Shown here piece by piece: positions 15,523 to 24,495 of a stretch of 64,000 bases of DNA. The notes below the pieces were generated by a model. It was not told where the DNA came from. It saw nothing but the letters and a program-made list of their open reading frames with translations, and searched no databases. The number at the start of each line of letters is the position of its first letter. The first letter of the stretch is position 1. Source of the DNA: Rhodocyclaceae bacterium (GTDB lineage Bacteria > Pseudomonadota > Gammaproteobacteria > Burkholderiales > Rhodocyclaceae); contig JAHDYG010000011.1 in assembly GCA_023383815.1 (NCBI GenBank), forward strand, positions 51,881 through 115,880. Direction: 5' to 3'. The position numbers were made by a program, and so were the translations under genes.

Positions 15523-16455
15523 TCAGGTACTTGAATCCCGCCATTGCTCGAGCGCGGTCAGAACGTCCGCAAGATCGCTGATCACCCGCACACCAGGGAG
15601 CTTGCCTGTCCTGCCCTGTACGGCGGACCCACCGACCCAGAGGGCGATGTCGGCCGGAAGCCCGCTCTTCAGTTCGAGGATTCCTTCGATCGCCTGACGG
15701 GATGGGTAGGCGGCGCTGAAGGACAGGCCGACGACGTCGAAGCGCCCCGCCGCTGCGGCCGTCCGGATGTCTGCGAGCGGGGTCTGGGTGCCCAGTGAGA
15801 CGCAGCTCACCCCTTCGGGCACGAGGGTCGCTTCCACCATCAGCAGGCCGAGCCCGTGCAGCTCCTCCGGCAAGGTCGTCAGCAGCACGCGCGGGCGACC
15901 GTGTGCCGTTGCGCTGGCTCCGATCGCACCGCGCAGCAGATTCTGAACCTGCTCGGTATAGAGATGCTCCCCGGTCACGTCGATCTCGCCGCGCAGCCAG
16001 GCCTGCCCGACCGTTTCATTGAGCGGGGCGAGGGTGTCGGCGACGAAGCGCTGCAAACCCTGTTTGAGCAGCAATTGCTGCAAGGCCGAGTACAGCTCAG
16101 CGCTGCGCTGGAGCCGGACCAGGTTCAGCAGTGCTGTTTCGTGAGTGGTCTCGCGGGACGAGTCATGCGCGCAGGGTGTGTGGGCGTCGAGCAATTCCTG
16201 CAGTTGCGCAACGGTCAGACCGACGAGCTGTGACGGACGCCTGCCCTGGTCCATGAGCCGACGCATCCGTCGCAGCTTTTCGAGCTGCTCGGCGGAGTAG
16301 ATGCGTTCGCCTCCCGCATCGCGTTGCGGATTCGGGAAACCATACCTGCGTTCCCAGACCCTCAGCGTGTCCTTCGACAGTCCGGTGTCGCGCTCCACGG
16401 CGGCAATCGACAGCGCACCGTTTGCGGAATCCAGTTTTGGAGTGGTTGGGTTCAT
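15523..16455 (-). CDS. MerR-family regulator with B12-binding domain (CarH/LitR-type photoreceptor candidate)
   Basis: MerR HTH (IAAVERDTGLSKDTLRVWERRYGFPNPQRDAGGERIYS), W-x9-EH motif (WLRGEIDVTGEH), ExHxxG B12 motif (ELHGLG), VGGSAV. Confidence 0.88.
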   Translation of the reverse strand: MNPTTPKLDSANGALSIAAVERDTGLSKDTLRVWERRYGFPNPQRDAGGERIYSAEQLEKLRRMRRLMDQGRRPSQLVGLTVAQLQELLDAHTPCAHDSSRETTHETALLNLVRLQRSAELYSALQQLLLKQGLQRFVADTLAPLNETVGQAWLRGEIDVTGEHLYTEQVQNLLRGAIGASATAHGRPRVLLTTLPEELHGLGLLMVEATLVPEGVSCVSLGTQTPLADIRTAAAAGRFDVVGLSFSAAYPSRQAIEGILELKSGLPADIALWVGGSAVQGRTGKLPGVRVISDLADVLTALEQWRDSST

Positions 16456-16470
16456 TTTGTCCTGGACAAA
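16456..16470. promoter_or_regulatory. Operator-like palindrome copy 1, TTTGTCC-T-GGACAAA
   Basis: Perfect 7+1+7 palindrome directly upstream of the MerR-B12 regulator start codon. Confidence 0.7.
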
Positions 16471-16473
16471 TCG

Positions 16474-16502
16474 TTGACAAAGGATTGTGTTGAATCTATC
16501 TT
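16474..16502 (+). promoter_or_regulatory. Sigma70-like promoter TTGACA-N17-TATCTT
   Basis: -35 TTGACA 16474-16479 and -10 TATCTT 16497-16502 with 17-bp spacer, between palindrome copies 1 and 2. Confidence 0.7.
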
Positions 16503-16518
16503 AGGGTTGTGACTTACA

Positions 16519-16533
16519 TTTGTCCAGGACAGA
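16519..16533. promoter_or_regulatory. Operator-like palindrome copy 2, TTTGTCC-A-GGACAGA
   Basis: One mismatched pair; overlaps predicted transcript start and SD of the divergent operon. Confidence 0.7.
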
Positions 16534-16535
16534 AT

Positions 16536-16829
16536 ATGAACCTGAGAAAGATTGCCTTGCCGCATCCCCACTTGGCAGCTGCCCGCCTGCTGCTGTTCTG
16601 TGTGGTTTCGATCGCGGCCCTGTGGAGCGTTCGGGCCATGTCCGATCGTCCGCCCGAGCCTCATTCGAGGATCTACATTGTCCAGGACAACTCGATGGTC
16701 GACCGAGCCGATCTGATGCGCTTTCTCCACCGGCCGGAGACGTTCGCCCCTGCGCCGGAATCAGGCCAGGTGGGCCGCCACGCGACCGAGCGCGTCGGTG
16801 CGAGGCCCGGACCCGGAGCCGGATCATGA
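16536..16829 (+). CDS. Small 97-aa protein with one predicted TM helix, first gene of light-associated operon
   Basis: MNLRKIALPHPHLAAARLLLFCVVSIAALWSVRAMSDRPP...; stop overlaps next start as ATGA (16826-16829). Confidence 0.55.
   Translation: MNLRKIALPHPHLAAARLLLFCVVSIAALWSVRAMSDRPPEPHSRIYIVQDNSMVDRADLMRFLHRPETFAPAPESGQVGRHATERVGARPGPGAGS
16678..16690. promoter_or_regulatory. Operator-like palindrome copy 3, TTGTCCAGGACAA, inside small ORF
   Basis: Perfect 6+1+6 palindrome with same core as copies 1 and 2. Confidence 0.6.
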
Positions 16830-18154
16830 ATCTCCCGAAGAAGCTGGATGGGGGGCGTCGGCGGGTGGCCGTCATCGGTTCGGGAATCTCGGGGCTCGCG
16901 TGCGCCTGGCTGCTCTCGCGCGAGCACTCGGTGACGCTGTTCGAGGCGGCCGAGCGGCTGGGCGGTCACAGCCATACCGTCGAGGTTGAACTCGCGGGAG
17001 CGCGCCATCCGGTCGATACCGGTTTTCTCGTCTTCAACCGGCGGACCTACCCGAATCTGTGCGCGATGTTCGATCTGCTCGGAGTGGGGGCGGTCGAGAG
17101 CCGCATGTCGTTCGCGGTAAGCCTGTCCGAACCGGACCTGGAGTGGGCGGGATCCGACCTCGGCACACTGTTTGCGCAGCGGCGCAACCTGCTCCGCCCG
17201 GCTTTTTTCGGCATGTTGCGCGATCTCCTGCGCTTCAACCGGGAAACGACCCGGATCGCCATGGCGGCCTCCGAGGGGAAGGCGCCGCTCGTTACCTTGG
17301 GCGAGTACCTCGAACGGGAACGGTACGGGGCACCGTTTCGCGATTGGTATCTGCTGCCGATGGCGGCGTCGATCTGGTCGTGTCCGACGCGCACCATGCT
17401 TGACTATCCGCTCGCGACCTTCCTGCGCTTCTGCCACAACCATGGCCTGCTGCAGATCTTCGACCGGCCGCAGTGGCTGACCGTGCGGGGTGGTTCGCGC
17501 GAGTATGTGCGACGCATCGCCGAGCGGCTGGACGACGTGCGCACAGGAGCGCCGGTCTTGCGCGTGCGGCGAAGCGCGGGCGGAGTCTGGGTGAACACGG
17601 CCCGTGAGACTGAATCCTTCGATGCGGTCATCTTTGCCTGCCACAGCAACCAGGCACTGGAGATCCTCGGTGAGGAGGCGAGCGCAGCAGAGCGCGCGAT
17701 CCTCGGTGCCGTACGCTACCAGGACAATCTTGCCGTCCTGCACACGGATCCGGCCCTGCTTCCGCGCCGCCGGGAGACCTGGTCGGCCTGGAACTATCTC
17801 GCCGGCGCCGGCCGCGCCGATTCGCGGCCCGTCTCGGTGAGCTACCTCATCAACCACTTGCAGCCGCTGCCCTCGGGGACGCCGGTGGTGGTGTCGCTCA
17901 ACCCCTTTCTTGAGCCGGATCCGGCCCGCGTGCTGCAGACCCTGCACTATGCCCACCCGGTGTTCGATCAGGGGGCGATCGATGCCCAGGCGCGACTGCA
18001 CGAGGTTCAGGGTGTCGACCGGTGCTGGTATGCCGGCGCCTGGACGGGCTACGGCTTTCACGAGGACGGGCTGCGTTCGGCGCTCGCAGTGGTCGAGGCG
18101 CTCGGGGTCCGGGTGCCGTGGCTCAGTTCACCGATCGAGACGCTGGCGGCATGA
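16826..18154 (+). CDS. FAD/NAD(P)-binding amine-oxidase-like protein (COG2907-type)
   Basis: RRVAVIGSGISGLACAWLLSREHSVTLFEAAERLGGHSHTV..DTGFLVFNRRTYPNL. Confidence 0.9.
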   Translation: MNLPKKLDGGRRRVAVIGSGISGLACAWLLSREHSVTLFEAAERLGGHSHTVEVELAGARHPVDTGFLVFNRRTYPNLCAMFDLLGVGAVESRMSFAVSLSEPDLEWAGSDLGTLFAQRRNLLRPAFFGMLRDLLRFNRETTRIAMAASEGKAPLVTLGEYLERERYGAPFRDWYLLPMAASIWSCPTRTMLDYPLATFLRFCHNHGLLQIFDRPQWLTVRGGSREYVRRIAERLDDVRTGAPVLRVRRSAGGVWVNTARETESFDAVIFACHSNQALEILGEEASAAERAILGAVRYQDNLAVLHTDPALLPRRRETWSAWNYLAGAGRADSRPVSVSYLINHLQPLPSGTPVVVSLNPFLEPDPARVLQTLHYAHPVFDQGAIDAQARLHEVQGVDRCWYAGAWTGYGFHEDGLRSALAVVEALGVRVPWLSSPIETLAA

Positions 18155-18939
18155 CCATGGACTCCAGCCCTCACGATCTGGCGCCGGTGGTGTGCTTCGG
18201 CGCTGTGCTGCACGAGCGGCGGACGGTGGCGCGCCATCGCTTCGTCTACCCGCTCGCCTTCCTGCGACTGCCGCTGTCGGATCTGCAGGCGCTCCGGGTT
18301 CCGCTGCTTGGCATCGACCGTGCAGCCGTGTTCAGCGTGCACGCCGAAGACCATGGTCCGCGGGATGGCCGGCCCCTGCTGCCCTGGATCCGGGACTTGC
18401 TCGCACGGCATGGGCTTGCGACGGCCTGTGACGGTGAGATCGTGCTGCAGACCTTGCCGCGTCTGTTCGGCTACGTGTTCAACCCCGTGAGCTTCTGGTT
18501 CTGCCACGATCGTGCGGGCCATCTGCGTGCGGTGCTCGCCGAGGTGAACAACACTTTTGGCGAACATCACAGCTACCTGATCCATCACCCCGACCTGCGG
18601 CCCATCGTCCCCGACGACGAACTGCGGGCGCGCAAGGTATTCCATGTGTCGCCCTTCTTTCCGGTCGAAGGGGAGTATCGGTTCCGCTTTGTCGAGCGCA
18701 GGGCGGTGCACGCCGTTCAGCTCGAGTACTGGAACCATGGGCACTGCGACCTCGTGACGCGCCTGAGCGGGCGTGCCGTACCCCTCGATCGCCCCGCCAT
18801 GATCCGCTGGCTGCTTCGGTTCCCGTTCATGACCCTGGGCGTGATCGCGCGCATCCACTGGCAGGCCTTGCGGCTGTGGTCGAAGAAGGTCCCGTTCTTT
18901 CGCAAGCCCGAGCCGCCCCTCAAGGAGACGACCCCATGA
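18151..18939 (+). CDS. DUF1365 family protein
   Basis: GAVLHERRTVARHRFVYPLAFLRLPL..LPRLFGYVFNPVSFWFCHD..EVNNTFGEHHSYL; ATGA overlap with previous gene. Confidence 0.92.
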   Translation: MTMDSSPHDLAPVVCFGAVLHERRTVARHRFVYPLAFLRLPLSDLQALRVPLLGIDRAAVFSVHAEDHGPRDGRPLLPWIRDLLARHGLATACDGEIVLQTLPRLFGYVFNPVSFWFCHDRAGHLRAVLAEVNNTFGEHHSYLIHHPDLRPIVPDDELRARKVFHVSPFFPVEGEYRFRFVERRAVHAVQLEYWNHGHCDLVTRLSGRAVPLDRPAMIRWLLRFPFMTLGVIARIHWQALRLWSKKVPFFRKPEPPLKETTP

Positions 18940-20180
18940 ATCCGATGGAACAAACGCTGACGCATGAGCTGGCGTGCCTGCCTGATCGCGCGATGGCCGC
19001 GTTGCCGCGTGCGACCCGGATGGCGCTTGAAATCCTGCAGTCGTTGCAGGGAGGGGGCATTTCGGTGGAGTTGCCCGATGGCACCATGGCATGTGCGGGT
19101 CAGGGCCAGGTGCTGGCACATTGGCGCATTCACGATCCGGGTGTGTTCGACGAGATTCTCGCGCGCGGCGACATCGGCCTGTCCGAGACCTGGATGGACG
19201 GACGGTGGGAAACCGACGATCTGACGGGCTTTCTGAGGATGCTGGCGACCAACCGTGCGCAACTCGGGCAGGCGCTCTACGGCCGGCGCTGGCGGCTCAT
19301 CGGTCACCGCCTCGCGCATCTTCTGAGGGCCAACACGCGCATCGGCGCGCGCCGCAACATCGAGGCCCACTACGACCTCGGCAATGCGTTCTACGCGCTC
19401 TGGCTCGACCCGACCATGACCTATTCGGCCGCAGTCTTTGGTGCCGAGGATGAGGATCTCGAAACGGCACAGCGAAGAAAGTACCGGAGGATCCTCGATC
19501 GTCTGGGGGCCGCTCCGGGGCAGACGATCCTGGAAGTCGGATGCGGCTGGGGCGGCTTTGCAGAGGTGGCCGCGACCGAGTATGGCTGCCACGTACTGGG
19601 ACTCACCCTCTCTCCGGCCCAGCTCGAATGGGCACGTGCGCGTGCGCAGCAAGGCGGATGGGGCGACCGGGCCGAGTTTGCCCTGTGCGACTACCGCGAC
19701 GCCCGCGGACAGTACGACCACGTTGTTTCGATCGAGATGATCGAAGCGGTCGGCGAGGCCTGGTGGCCCACCTACTTCAGCCGCCTTGCCGCCTTGCTGC
19801 GTCCGGGCGGCCGCTGCGTACTGCAGGCGATCACGATCTCGGATGCGCTCTTCGGACGCTATCGCCGCGGCACCGATTTCATCCAGCAGTATGTGTTCCC
19901 GGGGGGCATGCTGCCTTCTCCGCGGACGCTCCAGGAGCAGGCAGGGCGGGCGGGGCTGGCACTGTGCGGCGAATTCTCGTTCGGACAGGACTACGCCAGG
20001 ACCTTGCGCCAATGGCACGCGCGTTTCAATGAACGCCGCGATGCGGTGCAGGCCCTCGGCTTCGACGAGCGGTTCCACCGCATGTGGCGCTTCTACCTTG
20101 CCTATTGCGAGGCGGGCTTCGCGGCCGGCAGCATCGACGTGCACCACGTCGAGCTGCGCCATCATGAAGTAGCACCATGA
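18936..20180 (+). CDS. Cyclopropane-fatty-acyl-phospholipid synthase family methyltransferase
   Basis: IEAHYDLGNAFYALWLDPTMTYSAAVF..ILEVGCGWGGFAEVAA..SIEMIEAVGEAWWPTYF. Confidence 0.93.
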   Translation: MNPMEQTLTHELACLPDRAMAALPRATRMALEILQSLQGGGISVELPDGTMACAGQGQVLAHWRIHDPGVFDEILARGDIGLSETWMDGRWETDDLTGFLRMLATNRAQLGQALYGRRWRLIGHRLAHLLRANTRIGARRNIEAHYDLGNAFYALWLDPTMTYSAAVFGAEDEDLETAQRRKYRRILDRLGAAPGQTILEVGCGWGGFAEVAATEYGCHVLGLTLSPAQLEWARARAQQGGWGDRAEFALCDYRDARGQYDHVVSIEMIEAVGEAWWPTYFSRLAALLRPGGRCVLQAITISDALFGRYRRGTDFIQQYVFPGGMLPSPRTLQEQAGRAGLALCGEFSFGQDYARTLRQWHARFNERRDAVQALGFDERFHRMWRFYLAYCEAGFAAGSIDVHHVELRHHEVAP

Positions 20181-20749
20181 GCGTGCCGCGCATGGCCTGG
20201 CGGGCCGCGCTCCGGGGGGCGCTGTGCGCGCTCGCCCTGGGCATCGTGCTTGCCGTCCAGCCTGTGCGCGCGAATGCTCCCCCGTTGCCGCCGGAGATCC
20301 TGCAACGATACCCGGAACTGCGTCCGCTCGGCGCCGGAGAGATGCGCTGGTTCGGTCTCCGTCTCTACGAAGCCCGCCTCTGGGTGAGTGGCGACCGGTT
20401 CGACCCGGAGGCGCCGTTCGCACTCTTGCTTACCTACCATCGGGCGATTCCGGCCGACCGGCTGGTCGACTCGAGCATCTCGGAGATGCGCCAGCTCGGC
20501 ACCGGGGATGAAGCGCTGCTTGCGCACTGGCGCGCCGAGCTCGAGCGCGCGTTTCCGTCGGTGTCTTCGGGCGAGTCCATCGTCGGCGTCCATCATCCCG
20601 GCGCTGGAGCCGAGTTCTGGCATCAGGGGCGGCGAACTGCGAGCATCGCGGATGCCCGCTTCGCGCGTGCCTTCTTCGCCATCTGGCTCGATGTGCGCAC
20701 GCGCGAGCCGGGCCTGCGCGCGCAACTGGTGGGCGGTCAGGCGCCGTGA
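20177..20749 (+). CDS. Chalcone isomerase-like periplasmic protein
   Basis: Signal peptide; LGAGEMRWFGLRLYEARLWV..LLTYHRAIPADRLVDSSISEMRQLG; ATGA overlap with upstream gene. Confidence 0.75.
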   Translation: MSVPRMAWRAALRGALCALALGIVLAVQPVRANAPPLPPEILQRYPELRPLGAGEMRWFGLRLYEARLWVSGDRFDPEAPFALLLTYHRAIPADRLVDSSISEMRQLGTGDEALLAHWRAELERAFPSVSSGESIVGVHHPGAGAEFWHQGRRTASIADARFARAFFAIWLDVRTREPGLRAQLVGGQAP

Positions 20750-22044
20750 GCCGTCAACTGCCCTTCATCGACCCGCAACCGGACCGGGCGATCCTTGCCT
20801 ACGGCGCGCTGGGCTTGCCGCTCGCCTTCGCTGCCCTGCCGATCTATGTGCACGTCCCGAAGCTCTACGTCGACCATCTCGGACTTTCGATCACGGCAGT
20901 CGGCGCCACGCTGCTGGTGGTCCGGGTCCTCGACGGCGTCACCGATCCCCTGATCGGCTGGGCCAACGACCGATGGCTGGCACGCAAGCGCTGGGTGGGA
21001 TTCGCGCTGCCATGGCTCGCAATCGGAATGCTCGCGCTGCTCGCACCGCCCGCGTCGGCGGGGCTGGGCTGGCTGGCCGGCGCGCTGGCGCTCGTGACGT
21101 TCGCGTGGTCGGCCGCATCGATCGCCTATCACGCATGGGGCGCGGAGCTTGCCGTCGAGACCCACGTGCGTACCCGGGTTTCGGCAAGTCGCGAAGGGTT
21201 TGCACTCGTCGGTGTGATGCTCGCGGCCGCCTTGCCCGGGATGCTGGCCGACGACGAGCCGGCGGGTTTGCGCGCACTCGCCTGGAGCTTCGTTCCCGTG
21301 CTCGTGCTGTGTGCGCTCTGCACGCTCTCCTTCGGGCTGCGATCGCCGGCGTGCGCTCCATCCGGCCCGGCAGCGGGCGTTTTCACCGGGCTGCGTGCCG
21401 CGCTCGCTGTGCGCGCTTTCCGGCGCCTTCTGCTGGTGTTCGCGGCAAACGGCATTGCCGCGGCGATCCCTTCGGTCACCGTTCTCTTTTACGTGTCCGA
21501 TGTGCTGCGCGCACCCGCCCAGTCCGGACTCTTCCTCGTGCTGTACTTCGCGGCCGCAGCCGCCAGCCTGCCGTTGTGGGTCGCGATCGCGCGCCGCTGC
21601 GGCAAGCGGCGCGCCTGGGCGGCGGCGATGGTGCTGGCGATGACGGCCTTCCTGTGGGCCGCAACCCTGGGTGCGGGCGATCTGGTGGCGTTTGCCCTGA
21701 TCTGCATCGTTTCGGGTGCGGCACTCGGAGCCGATCTCGCCGTGCCTCCCGCCATGCTTGCCGATCTGCTGGCACGCGATCGGGCCGCGGACGGGCAGGT
21801 TTCCGCAGGTGCCAGCGCCGGAGCCTGCTTCGGGTGGTGGGCCTTCGTAACCAAGGCCAATCTCGCGCTTGCGGCAGGGCTTGCCTTGCCGCTCCTGGGC
21901 TGGCTGGGTTACACCCCCGGGACCGATGCAGCCGGGCCGCTCGCTGCCCTGGCGATGGTCTACGCGGTGCTGCCAGTCGTCCTCAAGGCCGGTGCGCTCG
22001 CACTGCTGCTGCGCGCGCATGATCTGGAACCCGAAGGAGGTTAG
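20746..22044 (+). CDS. MFS transporter, GPH/MelB-like
   Basis: LAYGALGLPLAFAALPIYVHVPKLYVDHLGLSITAVGATLLVVRVLDGVTDPLIGWANDR. Confidence 0.85.
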   Translation: MSRQLPFIDPQPDRAILAYGALGLPLAFAALPIYVHVPKLYVDHLGLSITAVGATLLVVRVLDGVTDPLIGWANDRWLARKRWVGFALPWLAIGMLALLAPPASAGLGWLAGALALVTFAWSAASIAYHAWGAELAVETHVRTRVSASREGFALVGVMLAAALPGMLADDEPAGLRALAWSFVPVLVLCALCTLSFGLRSPACAPSGPAAGVFTGLRAALAVRAFRRLLLVFAANGIAAAIPSVTVLFYVSDVLRAPAQSGLFLVLYFAAAAASLPLWVAIARRCGKRRAWAAAMVLAMTAFLWAATLGAGDLVAFALICIVSGAALGADLAVPPAMLADLLARDRAADGQVSAGASAGACFGWWAFVTKANLALAAGLALPLLGWLGYTPGTDAAGPLAALAMVYAVLPVVLKAGALALLLRAHDLEPEGG

Positions 22045-22084
22045 TCATGCAGGGCTGGGTGAGCGTTCGAAGGGGGCTGGGTCG

Positions 22085-22891
22085 ATGAGTCTGAATGCGC
22101 CGATCGATCGCTGGCAGGGGCGGCGGGTCTGGCTGGTGGGGGGCTCTTCCGGAATTGGGGCGGCGCTCGCTTGCGCGCTGGCGCAGCGCGGGGCGCGCCT
22201 CGCGCTGTCGGCGCGTAGCGGGCAGGGCCTGGAGCACTGTGCCGAGCGCTGCCGGCAACGCGGTGCCACGGATGTTTCGGTCCACCCGATGGATGTCACT
22301 CGCGAGCGGGATTTCTTCGCGGTGCTCGGTTCCCTCCTTGGCCGCTGGGGCGGGGTCGATCTGGTGGTGTTCAATGCCGGAACCTATCGTCCACAACGCG
22401 CCTGGGAGCTGACGCCGGAGTCGGTGCGCGAAACCCTCGACGTGAACCTGGTCGGCGTTTTCGATGGGGTTGCAACTGTACTGCCGATGCTGCTCGCTCA
22501 GGCTGAGCGAGGCGAACCGGCTGCGCTGGCCATCGTCGGCAGTGTCGCCGGGTATCGAGGCCTGCCGCGCGCCGCGGTATACGGGCCCTCGAAGGCGGCA
22601 CTGATCAATCTGGCGGAATGCCTGTATCTCGATCTTGCGCCTCGGGGTGTCTCGGTGTTTCTGATCAACCCGGGCTTTGTCGCGACCGGACTGACCGCCC
22701 GGAACGGCTTTCACATGCCTGCGCTGCGGACACCGGAGCAGGCGGCCGAAGCGATCGTGCACGGATTTGCCCGCGGGCGTTTCGAGATCCACTTCCCGCG
22801 CCGCTTCACCTGGGCAATGAAAGTGCTGCGCCTGCTGCCCGATCGCATCGCGTTCTGGCTCCTGCGCAAGCTGACCGGAGCAGAGCGATGA
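22085..22891 (+). CDS. Short-chain dehydrogenase/reductase
   Basis: VWLVGGSSGIGAALA, VFNAGTYR, YGPSKAALINLAE. Confidence 0.9.
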   Translation: MSLNAPIDRWQGRRVWLVGGSSGIGAALACALAQRGARLALSARSGQGLEHCAERCRQRGATDVSVHPMDVTRERDFFAVLGSLLGRWGGVDLVVFNAGTYRPQRAWELTPESVRETLDVNLVGVFDGVATVLPMLLAQAERGEPAALAIVGSVAGYRGLPRAAVYGPSKAALINLAECLYLDLAPRGVSVFLINPGFVATGLTARNGFHMPALRTPEQAAEAIVHGFARGRFEIHFPRRFTWAMKVLRLLPDRIAFWLLRKLTGAER

Positions 22892-23334
22892 ACGGGGCTG
22901 CCGCGCGCGATCCACGCGATGAAGGCCTCGGCCGCCTGGTCGCCTTCTACGAATCGCTCACCGTCCAGAGCGTGCCGCAGATCGCCCAACTCTACGCTCC
23001 GCAGGCCTTCTTCCGCGACCCCTTCAACGAAGTCAACGGCGTGGCCGCGATCGAGCGCATCTTCCGCCACCTCTTCCAGCAGGTCGAGACACCGCGGTTC
23101 ACGGTGACCAACCGGCTGCGCGAGGGCAATCAGGCCATGCTCGGATGGGTTTTCCGCTTTGGTTCCGGCGCGCGGACGATCGAGATTCCAGGGGTCAGTC
23201 ACCTGATCCTCGATGCGCAGGGACGGGTCACGAGCCACGTCGACTACTGGGATGCAGCCAGTGGGTTGTACGCGAGGCTGCCGCTCGTGGGGCCACTGAT
23301 GCGTTGGCTGCGCCGCCGACTGTCGGCGCCCTGA
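22888..23334 (+). CDS. SnoaL/NTF2-like fold protein
   Basis: LVAFYESLTVQSVPQIAQLYAPQAFFRDPFNEVNGVAAIERIFRHLF; ATGA overlap with SDR gene. Confidence 0.8.
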   Translation: MNGAAARDPRDEGLGRLVAFYESLTVQSVPQIAQLYAPQAFFRDPFNEVNGVAAIERIFRHLFQQVETPRFTVTNRLREGNQAMLGWVFRFGSGARTIEIPGVSHLILDAQGRVTSHVDYWDAASGLYARLPLVGPLMRWLRRRLSAP

Positions 23335-23418: not shown

Positions 23419-23502
23419 TAAACCATGACTGAAAGATGGGTTTAATTGGTACAACAGTTAGACCATGTCTAAAGCCGCTTTCTTTCACTCATGGAGTTCA
23501 AC

Positions 23503-24495
23503 ATGAAAATCAGGGCAATCAGTCTCGCATTGATGTTCGCAGCGACCGCCGCATGGGGCGCCAAGGCACGGGAAGAGCCGATCGAACCGATCGCTCCCGC
23601 GGTCGTGACCAACCCGGCGAAGGTCGAGCTGGGCAAGAAGCTGTTTTTCGAGCCGCGCCTGTCGATGTCCGGGATCATCTCCTGCAACACCTGCCACAAC
23701 CTGTCGCGCGGGGGCACCGACAATCTGAAGACCTCGATCGGCCACCGCTGGCAGGCCGGGCCGGTGAACGCGCCGACGGTGCTCAACTCCAGCCTCGCGA
23801 TCGCCCAGTTCTGGGATGGCCGTGCCGCCGACCTCAAGGAGCAGGCCGCCGGCCCGATTCAGGCCGGAGTCGAGATGGCCATGCCGCACACCCTTGCCCT
23901 GGACGTTCTGCAGTCGATTCCGGGCTACGTGAACGAGTTCGAAAAGGTGTTCGGCTCGGCTGGCATCGACATGGACCGCGTGACCAGTGCAATCGCTGCC
24001 TTCGAAGAGACCCTTGTCACGCCGAACTCCCGTTTCGACAAGTGGCTGCTCGGTGACGACAAGGCGCTGACGGCCGATGAACTCGCCGGCTACAAGATCT
24101 TCAAGGACAGTGGCTGCGTGGCCTGCCACAACGGTGCGGCGGCGGGCGGCACCTCCTACCAGCGCATGGGGGTCGTGCGGCCCTACGTCAGCACTTCGCC
24201 GGTCGAGGGGCGCTATGCGGTGACCGGCAATGACGCAGATCGCTTCAACTTCAAGGTGCCGACCCTGCGCAACGTCGAGATGACCTATCCGTACTTCCAT
24301 GACGGGGAGGCCAGGACGCTCGAAGAGGCGACGGACATCATGGGGCAGCTGCAACTGGGGCGCTACTACAAGGAAGACGAGATCGCGAAGATCGTGGCCT
24401 TCCTGAAGACGCTCACGGGCGAGCAGCCGCAGATCACGGTGCCGATCCTGCCGCCGTCGAGCAACGCGACCCCGCGACCGGATCCGTTCAAGTAA
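23503..24495 (+). CDS. Di-haem cytochrome c peroxidase
   Basis: Signal peptide; two CxxCH motifs (CNTCH, CVACH); NPAKVELGKKLFFEPRLSMSGIISCNTCHNLSRGGTD. Confidence 0.93.
   Translation: MKIRAISLALMFAATAAWGAKAREEPIEPIAPAVVTNPAKVELGKKLFFEPRLSMSGIISCNTCHNLSRGGTDNLKTSIGHRWQAGPVNAPTVLNSSLAIAQFWDGRAADLKEQAAGPIQAGVEMAMPHTLALDVLQSIPGYVNEFEKVFGSAGIDMDRVTSAIAAFEETLVTPNSRFDKWLLGDDKALTADELAGYKIFKDSGCVACHNGAAAGGTSYQRMGVVRPYVSTSPVEGRYAVTGNDADRFNFKVPTLRNVEMTYPYFHDGEARTLEEATDIMGQLQLGRYYKEDEIAKIVAFLKTLTGEQPQITVPILPPSSNATPRPDPFK

Follow-up and report, generated by a model that had tools for sequence, protein, structure and literature searches.

Conserved palindromes as the probable operator of a LitR/CarH-type B12 regulator at a furan fatty acid-type operon in Rhodocyclaceae

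Which protein acts on the three palindromes that surround a B12-binding MerR regulator gene in a Rhodocyclaceae bacterium, and which promoters would it control? The window, the whole stretch of 64,000 nucleotides that was analysed, carries a litR/carH-type gene divergent from an operon of lipid-related genes, and the features of the locus are collected in Table 1. A sequence-only reading had proposed three copies of TTGTCC-N-GGACAA here, and all three are present, with centre distances of 63 and 158 bp as claimed. Site 1 lies directly before the ATG of the regulator, and the TTGACA-N17-TATCTT promoter proposed between sites 1 and 2 is found there. Sites 1 and 2 each contain an AGGA run, spaced as a Shine-Dalgarno sequence would be from the start codon of one of the two divergent genes. 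The run in site 1 is the ribosome-binding run of litR. The run in site 2 precedes the first ATG of the operon, which agrees with the earlier placement of this site at the operon start; we revise that placement in that site 2 also carries the predicted -35 element of litR's own promoter.

Table 1. Features of the litR locus and the divergent operon, in positions of the window.
Feature	Position	Strand	Basis or remark
litR/carH-type regulator gene, 310 aa, MerR HTH and B12-binding domains	15523..16455	-	Pfam, alignment, B12 residues
Site 1 palindrome, TTTGTCCTGGACAAA	16456-16470, centre 16463		Abuts litR start codon; kept in relatives
Two CarH-type direct repeats, TGGACA-N5-TTGACA, 11-bp period	16463..16479	+	Second repeat is the operon -35 (16474-16479)
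Operon -10, TATCTT	16497..16502	+	17 bp from the -35
Predicted litR promoter	16498..16526	-	-35 TGGACA (16526-16521) in site 2, N17, -10 TAAGAT (16503-16498)
Site 2 palindrome, TTTGTCCAGGACAGA	16519-16533, centre 16526		Over litR -35
Small ORF of 97 aa with a hydrophobic N-terminal stretch; the operon's first gene	16536..16829	+	Counterparts in relatives
Site 3, ATTGTCCAGGACAAC	16677-16691, centre 16684		Within the small ORF; encodes ..I-V-Q-D-N..
FAD oxidoreductase, UfaD-like	16826..18154	+	Amino_oxidase, NAD_binding_8; domain content and order compared with PMC7380195
DUF1365 protein, UfaO-like	18151..18939	+	DUF1365, E 1.3e-78
CFA-type methyltransferase, UfaM-like	18876..20180	+	CMAS, E 2e-87
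Chalcone_3, MFS_2, short-chain dehydrogenase and SnoaL-like genes, same operon	20177..23334	+	Pfam

Exact copies of TTGTCCNGGACAA occur only twice in the 3.8-Mb genome, both at the litR locus, and the third site differs by one mismatch. Genome-wide motif counts come from a pattern search. At ≤2 mismatches this search gave no excess over the reversed pattern (117 matches for the motif and 148 for its reverse), and in the window alone three matches at this tolerance are not unusual, a number reached by 21 of 100 shuffles. The significance of the three sites comes from their exactness, clustering and conservation and not from the count in the window; the same three properties rule out a chance palindrome. 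Since exact copies are confined to the litR locus and there is no genome-wide excess at ≤2 mismatches, the motif is specific to this locus, and the genome scan suggested earlier did not return a motif that is frequent throughout the genome. A wide regulon in this genome was also considered and rejected: there are eight other places with one mismatch, most of them within long open frames and none with a convincing light-related neighbour, and the region of the genome's one photolyase match holds no good box.

For the comparison across relatives, a scan with the LitR protein yielded 78 loci and a genome search added more; for 107 loci, the LitR protein was the only basis of selection. Nearly every one of the 78 loci has the motif upstream of litR. 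The pair formed by sites 1 and 2 is present in 76 of the 107 LitR-selected loci, with a spacing of 62-64 bp or one turn longer. When the loci were reduced to 59 non-redundant ones, this spacing was 62-64 bp in 50, 72-76 bp in 8 and 58 bp in 1.

Known CarH operators consist of 11-bp direct repeats of the form nnnnTnnACAn, in three or more units, one of which often holds the -35 element (PMC9304148). From the TGGACA of site 1 it is exactly 11 bp, one CarH repeat, to the TTGACA that forms the operon -35. The operator here has these two TnnACA units at 11 bp and no third unit, and its core is a palindrome. In relatives, TnnACA was found at offset 0 in 36 of 44 loci and at offset 11 in 24 of 44. 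Judged from these positions, site 1 and the operon -35 appear to be placed by the 11-bp repeat rule known for CarH. The spacer of the operon promoter is 17 bp in 62 of the 64 scored relatives. On the other strand, 54 of 67 relatives have the TAnnnT of the predicted litR promoter at spacer 17; any other spacer in the range 13-21 occurs in four at most. Since the -10 elements of the two promoters occupy opposite strands of the same few bases, use of the two promoters should be mutually exclusive, and this arrangement at least partly sets the 63-bp spacing of sites 1 and 2.

It is possible, if somewhat doubtful, that the fixed 63-bp spacing reflects the two overlapping promoters only and carries no information on helical phase or cooperative binding. 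The distance from the operon -35 to site 2 (51-53 bp in 63 of 64 loci) is what shared -10 bases would demand. Site 1, however, lies in no promoter element and nevertheless shifts only by about one turn: among the 64 scored relatives its offset to the operon -35 is 11 bp in 44, 12 bp in 7 and 10 bp in 1, and the remaining offsets fall at 21-26 bp (22 bp in 6), with the range 13-20 bp empty. Spacing classes changed at least five times on the LitR tree, one of these changes leading to the 58-bp outlier, and the one-turn shifts amount to at least four separate changes. Across relatives, the helical phasing that the sequence-only reading had claimed is retained for sites 1 and 2, and site 1 also stays in register with the operon -35. 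Eleven loci, mostly from Thauera, gave no site pair; they have lost site 1 along with the operon promoter and keep the box at site 2 together with the litR promoter.

The regulator itself consists of a MerR HTH followed by two B12-binding domains (Pfam), and it aligns over its full length to Thermus CarH (5c8d, residues 11-299, E 2.6e-30). It scores 136.9 bits with the NCBI CarH equivalog model NF052513, well below the cut-off of 400, and is therefore a CarH homologue that does not belong to the same subfamily or equivalog. The equivalents of Trp131, Glu141, His142, Glu175, His177 and Gly180 are invariant in the regulator and its relatives (123 sequences in all). Thus the lower ligand His177 in E-x-H-x-x-G is kept, and so are Trp131 and Glu141/His142 around the adenosyl group. 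The position of His132 is occupied by Leu in the regulator, and in the aligned relatives it is Met, Leu, Val, Ile, Ala, Phe, Ser or Thr and never His among the 123 sequences. The residue is hydrophobic or small in the whole clade, though every other B12 residue tested is invariant.

The light state of Thermus CarH has His132 as its upper ligand, and the H132A protein remains for the most part tetrameric after light (PMC10442372); an earlier report, cited in the same paper, described disassembly of H132A in light. The position varies in the wider family (PMC11796333), so His132 is a Thermus-type feature and not a requirement of the family. Its absence is the main reason to doubt that release occurs exactly as in Thermus CarH. 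With this ligand absent, LitR could be a sensor of the B12 level or of redox state and not a light switch, as the Leu found here and the tetrameric state of most Thermus H132A after light would allow; we regard this as unlikely, since the Trp131, Glu141, His142 and His177 equivalents are invariant, H132A was seen to disassemble in the earlier report, the His132 position varies in the wider family, and boxes adjoin photolyase genes in relatives.

Site 3 lies within the first gene of the operon, for which no Pfam or NCBIfam family was matched. Using a score of ≥14 as the threshold, a site was counted 70-330 bp past site 2 in 29 of the 59 non-redundant LitR-selected loci and in 1 of 788 control stretches. 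These statistics use LitR-selected loci only, and the result was the same when some motif-fetched loci were included. About half of the non-redundant relatives with the site 1/site 2 pair have no site 3. Site 3 shows no 11-bp repeat and no fixed polarity. Its use as another promoter was rejected, as there is no -10 element at a usable spacing.

The codon frame at site 3 is identical in all 30 tabulated loci, and therefore coding constraint had to be considered. A reading in which site 3 is no operator and its sequence is preserved by the small peptide's need for a V-x-D motif would agree with this single frame, but is quite unlikely on the codon evidence. The codon before the Val ends in T in 29 of 30 loci (background 9%) although the encoded residue varies, GTC encodes the Val in 30 of 30 (41% expected), and all 30 have C as the last base of the codon at the Asp position. 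Mismatches mostly avoid the third positions of codons, although choosing sites at ≤2 mismatches biases the codon statistics somewhat. In six relatives that have lost the site, the peptide still has its C-terminus but V-x-D is gone. Because of the third-position bases, the GTC usage and the loss of V-x-D together with the site, selection at the DNA level is the better reading, and site 3 appears to be conserved at that level.

The distance from site 2 to site 3 in relatives is usually 160 bp, with groups near 150 and 170 bp and a full range of 84-261 bp. A Rayleigh test of helical phase on the distinct distances gave P of about 0.05, which makes a common phase of site 3 across relatives suggestive only. 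The exact 15.0 turns (an integer phase) earlier assigned to site 3 did not hold up, given that the distance varies and the site lies within coding sequence. The role of site 3 is the least certain part of the model proposed below. Matches at 234-238 bp in relatives whose first gene is a glutathione peroxidase were set aside; they encode the enzyme's conserved A-V-Y-D-K stretch. This glutathione peroxidase, with a predicted export signal, replaces the small ORF as the first gene behind the boxes in seven loci. In many relatives the lipid operon is preceded, as in the window, by a small ORF (about 66-97 aa) whose N-terminus is hydrophobic and whose C-terminal end resembles L-x-L-F-L-H-(R/Q).

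The assignment of the motif to the regulator was examined in 151 genomes of the family. litR is present in 39 of the 53 genomes that bear the exact motif and in 20 of the 98 others (P=2.3e-10), and the reversed motif, used as a control in the same genomes, shows no association with litR (odds ratio 0.97, P=1). Three genomes that keep the lipid operon and have no litR show no box near the operon, the best scores being 3.3, 4.3 and 11.3. In one genome where litR is far away, two boxes 74 bp apart, with scores of 23 and 26, stand before a glutathione peroxidase gene and ufa-like genes. Of the exact matches examined, about half belong to litR or operon loci; many of the others lie within long open frames, as chance would give. 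That another transcription factor binds the palindrome and controls litR and the operon is improbable: 14 of the 53 motif-bearing genomes have no litR match, but the reversed motif occurs at a comparable background rate, so these matches are mostly chance, the operon has no boxes in the three genomes that lack litR but does have them where litR is unlinked, and the half-site fits the CarH TnnACA rule. The motif is thus very probably the LitR/CarH operator, judging from its distribution. Its assignment to the B12-MerR regulator, offered in the sequence-only reading as inference, is strengthened by conservation in litR divergons, co-occurrence with litR and absence upstream of the operon in three litR-less relatives.

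UfaD, UfaO and UfaM form the furan fatty acid gene set, UfaO containing DUF1365 (PMC7380195). Genes of the UfaD, UfaO (DUF1365) and UfaM types stand together in the operon, as matched by domain content against the same paper. Judged by domain content, the operon looks like one for the synthesis of furan fatty acids, which are protective membrane lipids. The true start of the UfaM-like gene may lie further in, given its overlap with the DUF1365 gene. Of the 151 genomes, 55 have both litR and the DUF1365 gene, 4 have only litR, 4 only the DUF1365 gene, and 88 have neither (P=2.6e-31); the two are jointly present or absent in 143 of the 151. In Rhodobacter the ufa genes are under sigma-E/ChrR and respond to singlet oxygen (PMC6852236). 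Control of the operon by sigma-E/ChrR was rejected for this genome, in which ChrR was not found. Downstream of the operon, on the same strand, lies a gene for a CCP_MauG di-haem cytochrome c peroxidase (23491-24495).

We consider it likely that the LitR/CarH-type B12 regulator of this clade has TTTGTCC-W-GGACAAA as its operator, through which both promoters would be repressed in the dark and released in light. From the sites, the promoter geometry, the conservation, the co-occurrence with litR and the B12 residues, all read from sequence, we infer binding by LitR, dark repression and light release. In the dark, AdoCbl-LitR would sit on site 1, upstream of the operon -35 in the 11-bp register, and on site 2, over litR's own -35. 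Occupation of sites 1 and 2 would shut the two overlapping, face-to-face promoters, giving autorepression of litR and repression of the furan-fatty-acid-type operon. Light would break the Co-C bond, LitR would leave, and litR and the lipid operon would both be expressed. Site 3 would be an auxiliary operator that most likely strengthens repression, either by raising the local concentration of LitR or by looping to site 1 or 2. In the lac and gal systems, internal operators mediate repression by DNA loops. Site 3 resembles these in being an extra operator within the coding region, downstream of the promoter; unlike there, its distance from site 2 varies between species (84-261 bp), and the loop is a proposal.

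A more far-reaching version, that a B12 photoreceptor without His132 controls furan-lipid synthesis in the whole family through a light-breakable DNA loop, which joins a divergent double-promoter operator to the conserved intragenic operator, and replaces the sigma-E/ChrR singlet-oxygen route, is in our judgement rather doubtful. The protein belongs to a known photoreceptor family; the palindrome with one repeat on overlapping promoters, the intragenic copy and the lipid target appear to be new. No report of the motif or of a link between LitR and furan lipids was found in the open-access literature, outside which most subscription journals lie. If the model is true, it gives a sequence definition of the LitR/CarH operator in a Rhodocyclaceae group and links the furan fatty acid genes of a bacterium in which ChrR was not found directly to light and B12. 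It would also offer a test of how a CarH-type protein that lacks His132 is released from DNA, and with a conserved operator inside a gene, looping by such a repressor can be tested directly.

The locus shares features with several known systems. The CarH systems of Thermus thermophilus, Bacillus megaterium and Cystobacter (PMC9304148) are alike in protein architecture and B12 residues, in TnnACA units at an 11-bp period with a repeat holding the -35, and, in some species, in the divergent or autogenous layout. In contrast to their operators, the one described here has a palindrome core of 13-15 bp and only one further repeat. It also has three separated sites, one of them intragenic, and a lipid operon as its target in place of carotenoid genes, and Leu replaces the His132 of the Thermus protein. 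For Myxococcus xanthus CarA/CarH, two inverted repeats have been described for CarA, one of them at the -35 (PMC9304148), similar to the arrangement here; that operator differs in sequence, forms a single block of about 55 bp, and no intragenic site is described for it in that paper. Class II LitR of Pseudomonas (PplR1, PmlR2; PMC9758184) is likewise a LitR repressor with one site over the -35 and, as here, a second site between the transcript start and the start codon. Its consensus, T(G/A)TACA-N12-TGTA(C/T)A (PMC9758184), is not matched by the TTGTCC-N-GGACAA sites. Class II LitR is considered unable to bind AdoB12, and a LOV partner is required by PmlR2 (PMC9758184), whereas the protein described here has the B12 signature. 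With Rhodobacter ufaD/ufaO/ufaM (PMC7380195, PMC6852236) the operon shares the FAD oxidoreductase, the DUF1365 protein and the CFA-type methyltransferase; it differs in being divergent from litR, with a sigma-70-type promoter, in a genome where ChrR was not found, and its furan chemistry is predicted.

Exact boxes also occur next to other genes in other genomes. They adjoin photolyase and DUF3429 genes in two loci, and over five loci, these two included, their neighbours are photolyase plus DUF3429, lipocalin and amine-oxidase-like genes. These genes are possible further targets of LitR.
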